This document shows, in pieces, positions 399 through 5,742 of a DNA stretch of 64,000 bases. The first letter of the stretch is position 1. Every line of letters starts with the position of its first letter. The translations under genes were made by a program, and so were the position numbers. The notes beneath the pieces are model-generated. The model was not told the DNA's origin. It was given only the letters and a program-made list of their open reading frames with translations, and made no database searches. The stretch is from Dolichospermum flos-aquae CCAP 1403/13F (GTDB lineage Bacteria > Cyanobacteriota > Cyanobacteriia > Cyanobacteriales > Nostocaceae): assembly GCF_012516395.1 (NCBI RefSeq), contig NZ_CP051206.1, positions 744,001 through 808,000 on the forward strand, given 5' to 3'.

Positions 399-3300
399 AT
401 GGAGTTAACTATGAAACTAACTATTTTTAATGAAATGGATTTTTTACCCGCTTTAAAGACTTTTTTTAGTGGGCTAAATGTACCTATTAATTATATAGAT
501 GATAAGCCAACTTCGGCAAAGGAAATATTACAGAATACCTATAAGGATAATGATTCTTTTAGGTTAATTAATGATGTTTATTTTGTTGGGTTAGTTGATG
601 ATGCAGCTTTTAGTAAAAAGCAAGGTTTAGAGATTGATCAAATTAAATCAGATTATGATGGAATTTTGATTTTTGGGGTAACTTTAAGTAATCGTGATCA
701 TGGACAATTACCAACGCGGTCGCAATTAGCAGAAATATCACGGGCTTTTAATCGGGAGTTTTGTTATACTCCTGTAGTGATTATTTTTAAGTATGGCGAT
801 TATCTAGCATTTGCTAATACTGAAAGATTAAAATATAAGGATAATCGTGAAGGTGAAAAAGCGGGTAAAGTAACTTTATTAAGAGATATTGATATTCAAC
901 AACCACATTCAGGACATCAACGTATTTTAGCAGAGTTAGCAATTCCCAAAACAGGTAAAGATCGGGTAGATTCTTTTGCTAAATTATATCAATATTGGCA
1001 AAAGGTTCTTGATGTTAGTTTGCTAAATAAACAATTTTATCAGGAGGTTTCAGCCTGGTATTTTTACGCTTGTAAACAAGTGGTTTTTCCCAAAGATGCT
1101 AAGAATAATCAAGAAAGTTTAATTAGGTTAATTACCCGGTTAATGTTTGTTTGGTTTCTGAAAGAAAAAGGTTTAGTTCCTAATCAATTATTTAATCAAA
1201 TTGATATTCAATCTATTCTCAAAAGTGTAGAACCCCAGGAAAGTACCTATTACAAAGCCATTTTACAAAACTTGTTTTTTGCCACATTGAATACTGAAGG
1301 TAAACGCGAATTTATTAAAGAGAGTTCCGGCGGTCGTAATTCCCAGCACATGGTACATAATGTATTTCGCTACAAGGATTATTTTCAAGATCCTGATGGG
1401 GTAATTGATCGTTATTTTGCAGATATTCCCTTTTTAAATGGTGGTTTATTTGAATGTTTAGATGTTCCTGCACAAAAGGATAAACCTGACACAGCAAAAA
1501 GAATTGATGGGTTTAGTAATCATTCTTCTAATGTGTTATCTGTGCCAAATGAATTATTTTTTGGTGATTTTCAAGATGTGGATCTTAATGCCGATTTTGG
1601 TACAAGTCGCAAGAAATATCGAGTACGGGGTTTATTAGAAATATTTAAAAGCTATAAGTTTACTATTGCTGAAAATACGCCCTTTGAGGAAGATGTGGCG
1701 CTTGATCCTGAATTATTAGGACAAGTATTTGAGAATCTTTTAGCGGCTTATAATCCTGAGACACAAACAACAGCTAGAAAACAAACAGGTTCTTTTTATA
1801 CGCCCCGTGAGATTGTTAATTACATGGTGGATGAAAGTTTAATTGCTTATTTTAAGAGTTGTTTGCCCTCACCCCCAGCCCCTCTCCCTAGGGGAGAGGG
1901 GAGCAAGATTCTTACTCCCCCTTCTCCCCAGGGAGAAGGGGGCAGGGGGGATGAGGGCGATCGCATTACTGGTAAGTTACGGTTAATTCCTAAAACATTG
2001 TTGATCAGAGCAAGAGAGCTAAGGCAAACCCAAACCCCTGCGGAACAAGTGCTTTGGGAATGTTTACGCGATCGCCGTCTTTGTGATGCAAAATTTCGTC
2101 GTCAACACAATATTGGGCGATTTATTGCTGATTTTTACTGTCACAGTGCCAAATTAGTCATTGAACTAGACGGAAGTGTTCATAACTCACAAGTTGAGCA
2201 AGATCAAGAAAGAGATGCTTGGATGCGATCGCAGGGAATTACAGTTTTACGTTTTCGTAATCAGGAAGTTTTTGATGATTTAGAGAGAGTTTTACTGAGA
2301 ATTGCTGAGATTTTGCCCTCACCCCCAGCCCCTCTCCCTGGGGGAGAGGGGAGCAAGATGGGAGAGGGGAGCAAGACTCTTACCCCCCCTTCTCCCCAGG
2401 GAGAAGGGGGCAGGGGGGATGAGGCCAAACTTCGCCATTTACTTTCTTATACCGATGAGCCACACCAGTTTACAGAATCAGAAGTGGAGCGTTTAATTGA
2501 GTCCATTGATAATTGCAAAATTCTTGATCCTGCTTGTGGTTCGGGAGCTTTTCCGATGGGAATTTTGCAGAAAATGGTACATATTTTAGCAAAACTCGAT
2601 CCGCGTAATCTAAATTGGAAACAGAGACAAATTGATCGACTTAATCAATTAATTATTGATGCAGAAGATATTGAGGATGAAAAAACACGGACAGATACAT
2701 TAGCTAATCTGGAAGCACAAAAAGAGAATTTAGAACGGGCATTTGCGCGTAATGGTTTAGACTATGGACGCAAGTTATTTTTGATTCAAAATTGTATTTA
2801 TGGGGTAGATATTCAAGCCATTGCTGTGCAAATTGCTAAGTTAAGATTTTTTATCTCTTTGATTATTGATCAAGAAGAAGATCAAGATGAAACAAATCGA
2901 GGAATTTTACCTTTACCGAACTTAGAAACGAAATTTGTAGCCGCAAATTCATTAATTGGAGTTACCAAAGTACAACAATTATCAATTTTTGATACTCAAG
3001 AAATTCAAGCAAAACAAAGGCGATTGGAACGGTTACGACGGGATCATTTCTTTGCTAAAAGTTTGGAAACAAAGCGGAAGAAACGCCAGGAAGATGAGCG
3101 TTTATCTCAGGAAATTGGTGAGATTTTGCGGCGCAATAAGTCGCCAAATGTGGAATCGTTGCAATCATGGAAACCTTATGATCAAAATGCTTCCGCAGAC
3201 TTTTTTGATCCTGAGTGGATGTTTGGGATTAAAGACGGTTTTGATATTTGTATTGGTAATCCGCCTTATGTAAGACAAGAACAAATTAAAGAGTTAAAAC

Positions 3301-5559: not shown

Positions 5560-5660
5560 GAATCACGGATTATATGGATTACGCTGATTACACGGATTTT
5601 TTTGATTTGCTAAGATAACCAAAATCTGTGAAATCCTTTAATCTATAAAATCCGTGATTC
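5560..5660. repeat. Inverted pair of the ATCACGGATT repeat
   Basis: A direct-orientation copy (5560-5600, AATCACGGATTATATGG then GATTACACGG) faces an inverted copy (5621-5660, AATCTGTGAAATCC then AATCCGTGATTC). They can fold into an imperfect hairpin just after the EVE remnant. Confidence 0.6.
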
Positions 5661-5742
5661 TAACCTTGTTTTTAGCCATTCACTCATCACTCAGGCTTAC
5701 TCAGGAAAGACGATCGCTCTCATCATTAGTATAATCCCTTAT

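Follow-up and report, generated by a model that had tools for sequence, protein, structure and literature searches.

Palindromic repeats that flank one small gene, a repeat type that is tied to the clade of the encoded enzyme, and solo repeats dispersed in the genome are features of the REP/RAYT elements (REPtrons/REPINs), whose enzyme is a Y1_Tnp (HUH/tyrosine) protein. Palindromic repeats are also found inside protein genes, as in the Rickettsia palindromic elements, and the accessible part of a 2013 survey reports such intragenic positions for CGTC and GTAG REPs, describes the CGTC REPs as having no dedicated transposase, and leaves their enzyme open (PMC3733652). A second group of relevant systems is that of the homing endonucleases, of which the EDxHD family, exemplified by I-Bth0305I, is described in the accessible part of a review (PMC3943268). 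Third, there are the Vsr-type repair endonucleases of the PD-(D/E)XK superfamily with their link to DNA methylation: according to the accessible text on VsrA, a DUF559 protein of Caulobacter, a cytosine-methylase mutant requires this protein to mount its SOS response, and VsrA is proposed to be a mismatch repair enzyme (PMC12907096).

Here, we analyzed a stretch of 64,000 nucleotides from Dolichospermum flos-aquae CCAP 1403/13F (the window), in which a gene for a type IIG restriction-methyltransferase contains a DUF559 nuclease domain between two repeats. Like REP/RAYT elements, this cassette has palindromes that flank one small gene and a repeat type that goes with the enzyme clade, and a RAYT-like gene uses the same site in three homologues, with dispersed solo copies known for other DUF559-associated repeats in some genomes; unlike in REP/RAYT elements, the enzyme is a Vsr-like PD-(D/E)XK nuclease, and by reading, neither of the two window repeats has a GTAG or CGTC tag. 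In common with homing endonuclease elements, alleles with and without the insert exist for one and the same gene, the cassette is less diverged than its host, and DUF559 relatives are found inside inteins, but the window copy is associated with neither an intron nor an intein, stays in the protein, and is bracketed by palindromic repeats. The window repeats lie inside a protein gene, as the Rickettsia palindromic elements and intragenic REPs do, but enclose a nuclease gene, which those described in the accessible part of the REP survey do not (PMC3733652). With VsrA, the cassette shares the domain, the superfamily and the link to DNA methylation; for VsrA itself, a function in mismatch repair is proposed (PMC12907096, as far as accessible). 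Already known are the REP/RAYT elements, intragenic REPs and the EDxHD homing endonucleases, and what may be new is their combination in DUF559 cassettes. A link of DUF559 to REP-like repeats or to mobility was not found in titles and abstract openings of the 14 papers of an open-access library that mention DUF559, and we did not meet repeat-bracketed DUF559 cassettes in restriction-modification genes in searches of that library, by which subscription papers are scarcely covered.

Results and discussion

The features of the locus are listed in Table 1. The preliminary description of this DNA had claimed an intact DUF559 domain between two repeats of the same direction, located between the connector and motif I of the IIG enzyme, with a repeat spacing of 468 bp and both repeats read through in frame, and all of this was borne out. 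The host protein matches the PADLOC model REase_MTase_IIG (E 5.8e-105) and has the Pfam domains Eco57I, TaqI_C and DUF559, the latter (PF04480) at residues 536-639 with E 3.1e-37 and 127 bits versus a cut-off of 20.6. The whole block of repeat, DUF559 and repeat spans residues ~488-675 and is positioned 3' of ...DESLIAYFKSC and 5' of KLRHLLSY...DPACGSG, and inspection of the open reading frame showed uninterrupted reading through it. The two repeats are 97% and 98% identical across their two halves. As the right repeat holds an internal duplication, the two repeats are offset by 450 bp when their left halves are compared and by 468 bp when their right halves are, and both values are multiples of three. 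Each repeat is a long imperfect palindrome, with single-stranded folding energies of -38.1 kcal/mol (z -5.9) for the left and -35.3 kcal/mol (z -3.1) for the right repeat, folded as DNA. At E 0.001, no intein model of Pfam or NCBIfam matched the window protein, and the reading of this copy as an intein was rejected for that reason.

Table 1. Features of the IIG gene and its cassette (window positions)
Feature	Position	Strand	Basis
Host gene, type IIG restriction-methyltransferase, 1433 aa	399..4700	+	open frame; Pfam; PADLOC
Left repeat, 95 bp, GC-rich long palindrome, translated LPSPPAPLPRGEGSKILTPPSPQGEGGRGDE	1862..1956	+	repeat comparison; folding
DUF559 nuclease (Vsr-like PD-(D/E)XK) with short N-terminal extension	1957..2311	+	Pfam domain ~2004-2315
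Right repeat, 113 bp, same orientation as left, 18-bp internal duplication	2312..2424	+	repeat comparison; folding
Downstream segment KLRHLLSYTDEPHQFTESEVERL..., like other occupied alleles, unlike empty ones	2425..2500	+	linkers compared by eye, no statistic
Methyltransferase motif I (DPACGSG)	2526..2546	+	sequence
Methyltransferase motif IV (NPPY)	3258..3269	+	sequence

An alignment of 26 diverse DUF559 members that includes embedded copies (alignment A1) has 13 invariant columns, and the window domain possesses all 13 of these residues. A comparison of the DUF559 profile with solved structures gave matches to 3hrl ("Endonuclease-Like Protein") with 1.9e-31 and to 3r3p ("Mobile intron protein") with E 2.2e-5; the latter, which we take to be I-Bth0305I, provides the sequence relation to the EDxHD homing endonucleases.

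The comparison of IIG homologues, a series that covers the family plus a single representative of the wider order (G057), revealed very different contents at the cassette site. The site is free of an insert in G002, G339, G057, G009:C104 and G003, and also in G300, for which the evidence is an uninterrupted match alone. G240 has one short repeat unit, and G340 has repeats but no gene. In G008, G009:C63 and G031, the site is taken by a RAYT-like gene and other repeats; this gene is in frame and accompanied by tandem QASSLS-type repeats (loci L049, L048 and L050, respectively), and Pfam confirmed Y1_Tnp in both alleles scanned (L048 and L049). DUF559 with repeats is found in the window and in the congeneric G011, and the window cassette is not a chance arrangement, because the same cassette occurs at the same site in that genome and other homologues are without it. 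When a 261-aa query was used, 130 of the 150 listed homologous matches, distant homologues included, crossed the site unbroken, with the reservation that an unbroken match may conceal a short insert such as that of G240; the other 20 comprise 12 pieces of six insert-bearing genes and 8 short or partial matches. This supports the insertion proposed in the preliminary description, and an ancestral domain of these enzymes is rejected, since most listed homologues run straight through the site. Repeat-flanked DUF559 genes and empty sites, both of which that description had envisaged, exist.

Among the alleles read, which include neither G031 nor G300, the linker between connector and motif I is 57-60 aa long where the site is empty, and likewise in G240, and has 97-404 aa where the site is occupied. 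The neighboring linker also differs between occupied and empty alleles, and because of this difference, no target site duplication was definable in the junction comparison. On the 3' side of the insert, the window by reading is at first similar to the alleles with a RAYT or with repeats alone (HLLSYTD..H.F), and further on it is similar to G002. This pattern would fit co-conversion of the flank together with the insert, and it would also fit a single old repeat insertion whose contents were exchanged later.

What can be read directly from these sequences is that homologous genes either have or lack a cassette at one particular site, and that the copies inside restriction-modification genes are read in frame. 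As the repeats of the window gene have no stop in the used frame and their lengths keep the frame, the host enzyme remains readable and no splicing is needed. The explanation that we favor, and hold to be rather probable, is that the insert represents one copy of a mobile cassette, consisting of a REP-like palindrome, DUF559 and a second palindrome, that spreads in a homing-like manner. The DUF559 protein, which is related to both Vsr and the EDxHD homing endonucleases, would cut or nick the empty allele or a repeat hairpin, and repair against the occupied copy would then spread the cassette. Restriction-modification and methylase genes pass between cells, and the cassette would thereby repeatedly meet empty alleles. 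The earlier view of a mobile unit that resembles inteins or homing endonucleases and enters genes in frame without splicing stands as far as the occupied and empty alleles and the missing intein model are concerned. It has to be amended in its analogy: REP/RAYT elements are as near a parallel as inteins, because a RAYT-like gene occupies the same site in three homologues, and elsewhere genuine inteins contain DUF559 as well. On sequence grounds, the best reading is a REP-like element in which a homing-type nuclease would replace the RAYT, carried in frame without splicing.

The association of nuclease and repeats was analyzed with free-standing genes. DUF559 matches exist in 164 of 243 genomes of the order, and among the 150 matches listed, 27 lie in frames of at least 336 aa and 123 in shorter frames; 105 of the latter and four further copies constituted a set of 109 loci. 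After masking of the coding frame, the two flanks were related to each other in 46 of 107 free-standing DUF559 genes, as opposed to 4 of 214 mismatched pairs and none of 27 ParE loci (those usable among 30 ParE controls, in which the longest frame at the locus center was masked). Without masking, the ratio was 57/103, versus 2/103 for mismatched and 0/101 for distal flanks. With a strict hairpin finder, the counts were 23/106 for left and 14/106 for right flanks, versus 2/104 and 0/106 for the distal ones; they are low because the stems are interrupted, and the left-right similarity was used instead. The sharing of repeats rises with nuclease identity, from 1.3% of pairs below 45% identity and 2.3% at 45-55% to 28.8% at 55-65%, 53.9% at 65-80% and 84.4% above 80%. 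The Mantel correlation was 0.37 for adjacent flanks, a value reached by none of 500 permutations, and 0.06 for distal flanks (both unmasked). Two DUF559 genes of the same genome with less than 65% identity had repeats in common in only 2 of 24 cases (unmasked), and a genome-wide repeat background therefore does not explain the pairing. As judged from these sequence comparisons, the repeat type goes with the nuclease clade. One repeat pattern co-occurs with one DUF559 type in 23 of 27 genomes versus 61 of 216 (Fisher p 1.3e-8), an association that is supportive only, as the p-value ignores kinship and the type was assigned by reading from the listed matches. In the cross-phylum set introduced below, the flanks of short-frame genes share a stretch in 14 of 44 cases, versus 0/44 mismatched and 0/35 distal, and two of the 14 (L283 and L294) do not look palindromic by eye.

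Solo repeats were seen as well. Up to 112 matches to DUF559-associated repeats are present per genome among the genomes with a listed matching DUF559, and there are repeat-rich genomes without a DUF559 match, for example G065 (210 copies, 61% complete) and G215 (62 copies). The window repeat occurs in its own genome only at this gene, apart from one weak partial match. These last two observations speak against our explanation. At E 1e-5, the window DUF559 has matches in 3 phage records out of 50,697 and in 45 plasmid records out of 72,556, and this gives little support to a phage- or plasmid-borne element.

A free-standing repeat-DUF559-repeat unit of about 571-636 bp was found in the genus. 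It is 96-97% identical in five genomes and ~90% identical in a sixth, and the similarity ends at the repeat ends GACCTAACCCC...GGGGGAGAGGTC, with the exceptions of a truncated left repeat in G014 and a missing right repeat in G005. The six copies share a single variable region, where each is found 1.1-5.2 kb from a conserved 2.6-kb block and always to the same side of this block, and near-identical copies at unrelated loci are therefore rejected. The right neighbor is the same in G002 and G011, and the different neighbors of the six copies can be the result of reshuffling around an ancestral copy. In G015, the flanks of the G011 unit enclose other DNA in place of the unit, and a partial copy of 183 bp (89%) lies elsewhere in the same variable region. 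The solo repeat cores have 2-6 matches in genomes with the genus nuclease, those beside the gene included, and 0-2 matches in the other ten genus genomes. By sequence comparison, we are dealing with presence, absence and reshuffling within one region and not with spread to unrelated places, and since these free copies of the genus are found in one region, free movement of the unit is weakly supported, which lowers the probability of our explanation and of the wider generalization given below. Small genes and repeats are reshuffled in the region (L404-L411, in G011, G002, G014, G013, G005, G001, G015 and G009), and one of the genes is antitoxin-like by reading.

These data bear on the main rival of our explanation, according to which the site is a hot spot seeded by repeats: REP-like palindromes would be mobilized otherwise, for example by RAYTs, and DUF559 would be a passenger that came to lie between repeats by recombination. 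Repeats without a nuclease in G240 and G340, the RAYT-like gene at the same site in three homologues, solo repeats in genomes that have no corresponding DUF559, and the confinement of the free genus copies to one variable region all agree with such a passenger. However, a passenger would not be expected to have a repeat type that tracks its clade across genomes, nor to keep its nuclease residues, and in several pairs nonsynonymous differences are far below synonymous differences (e.g., pN 0.019 and pS 0.264). We consider this alternative unlikely, albeit the strongest of those discussed here.

We then turn to the genes in which DUF559 is embedded. All 27 listed long-frame matches of the order were read, and 26 of them are restriction-modification, methyltransferase or Hma defense genes: 11 of the IIG/MmeI/Eco57I type, 7 of type ISP, 2 HmaB-like DUF1156 methylases, 1 HmaA-like helicase, and 5 inteins of DNA methylases. 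The one remaining host is a cyanobacterial Schlafen AlbA_2 fragment at a contig end. The intein copies (L101 in G265, L104 in G220, L105 in G174, L106 in G161 and L252 in G233) are placed at motif I, with ends ...HN before CGSGT. They are supported by NCBIfam intein_Cterm for L104-L106, by a weak Pfam match under the cut-off for L101, and by reading alone for L252, which does not form one continuous reading frame. Host intactness is not general: a number of hosts are broken or truncated at contig ends (L093, L096, L108-L110, L252, L255, L256 and L274), and some listed frames start late. In L045, L046 and L103, which are restriction or defense genes, more in-frame repeats were noticed elsewhere in the gene that are without a nuclease.

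For a view across phyla, contigs of 84,980 species were scanned with a profile of the nuclease clade of the window, and the best 80 of 578 relatives were evaluated, a sample that is biased to this one clade and includes some cyanobacteria. In this sample, 46 copies reside in frames of less than 260 aa and 34 in longer frames, the hosts being 11 HsdR, 8 HsdM, 5 of the IIG/MmeI type, 1 HmaB (the Planktothrix copy already counted in the order), 7 HisF fusions and 2 unclear cases; Pfam supports 10 of the HsdR and 7 of the HsdM assignments, and the others were made by reading. The HsdR hosts belong to two Methanophagales archaea, a cyanobacterium, Chloroflexi, Bacteroidota, Planctomycetota and others, and show by reading two recurrent insertion places, one of them shortly before Walker A. 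A single insertion motif was not found: motif I, motif IV and Walker A are at variable distances from the insert. The seven DUF559-HisF fusions (L303, L307, L313, L319, L320, L329 and L333), one confirmed by Pfam and six read, are all from Bacteroidota, and together with the Schlafen AlbA_2 fragment they invalidate a rule of "only restriction-modification genes". An apparent short repeat remnant lies between DUF559 and HisF at these loci. In a quick tree of 213 domains, based on about 105 residues, the 50 copies embedded in restriction, methylase or defense genes require at least 15 changes, compared with at least 39 in shuffles, and many embedded copies are therefore inherited and not fresh, a further point against our explanation. 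The host type switches often within nuclease clades, with 7 changes for 8 HsdM copies, 6 for 12 HsdR copies and 9 for 12 IIG copies.

This host range is relevant for the second rival, namely that methylases and restriction enzymes acquired DUF559 as a functional domain for DNA cleavage or repair in the service of defense, with the repeats as linkers that were left from its arrival. The predominance of such hosts (26 of the 27 listed) is what this would predict, and the functional link of DUF559 with methylation in Caulobacter VsrA, as given in the accessible text (PMC12907096), points in the same direction. We nevertheless regard it as distinctly improbable: the insertion points differ between hosts, being located before motif I, motif IV or Walker A, in the specificity domain of type ISP enzymes or in the C-terminal part of HsdM; most listed homologues of the window IIG enzyme have no DUF559; HsdR already owns an N-terminal HSDR_N domain; and the copies inside inteins would be spliced out.

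The mobile cassette that we favor should be younger at its site than the gene around it, and the sequence divergence in the pair of window and G011 agrees with this. DUF559 has only 4.5 synonymous differences in 109 codons (pS 0.065), as compared with a pS of 0.48 upstream and 0.37 downstream of it in the host gene. In bins of 50 codons, the lowest pS of the gene, about 0.03, is that of the cassette bins 551-650; pS climbs to 0.55 by codons 701-750, and other low bins are 901-950 (0.10) and 1001-1050 (0.095). The window gene is a mosaic, with a front half nearer to the empty G002 (pS 0.228) and a back half nearer to G011. By this comparison, the cassette was probably exchanged more recently than the host gene diverged. 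Among 17 pairs of insert-bearing genes, which are mutually non-independent, 11 have an insert that diverges less than either flank, in some pairs only slightly, and these include three intein pairs and three RAYT pairs; the insert is more diverged than both flanks in two (L095-L099 and L095-L042), intermediate in one (L108-L109), and three pairs are near saturation or without a flank. It is very unlikely that the low divergence merely reflects ordinary exchange in generally mosaic restriction-modification genes without any mobile cassette, for although the mosaic gene and its other low bins are in line with this, the cassette bins are the lowest of the gene, pS is high again shortly downstream, and a drop at the insert is seen in most but not all other pairs.

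Broader significance

Taken together, relatives of the unit of repeats and nuclease, which were found between genes or within restriction and defense genes of many bacteria and several archaea, suggest a type of mobile element that has received little attention. A wider generalization is put forward tentatively, as a possibility that we would not yet call probable: DUF559 nucleases may be widespread minimal mobile elements of bacteria and archaea, composed of palindrome, homing-type nuclease and palindrome. Their clades might be specialized in restriction-modification and defense genes (IIG, MmeI-type, type ISP, HsdR, HsdM, HmaA/HmaB), in which they would reside in frame and unspliced, or in methylase inteins, and they might hop between these hosts. 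They could also be the enzyme partner of REP-like repeats that have no RAYT.

If this is true, a common "domain of unknown function" gains a biological role, and the RAYT-less REP-like palindromes gain a candidate enzyme; for the CGTC repeats, whose enzyme was left open in the accessible part of the 2013 survey (PMC3733652), it should be kept in mind that the window repeat carries neither tag. It would further mean that nuclease cassettes can persist unspliced in coding genes, as long as the repeat does not shift the frame. Why the cassettes concentrate in restriction-modification and defense genes, in bacteria and archaea alike, is a testable question, and the cause may be frequent transfer of these genes, methylation that protects the carrier, or a nuclease that adds to defense. 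For annotators, the cassette structure would offer a way to recognize HsdR, HsdM and IIG genes that carry a DUF559 insert.

Two further observations concern the surroundings of the IIG gene in the window. A 37-bp repeat (ATCACGGATTAAATGGATTACACAGATT...) is present at positions 354-390, 5562-5607 and 5639-5676, so that direct and inverted copies lie on either side of the restriction gene region. The start of the window, at positions 3-341 and immediately 5' of the IIG gene, contains a partial open frame that by eye looks like the N-terminal nuclease domain of a restriction enzyme.
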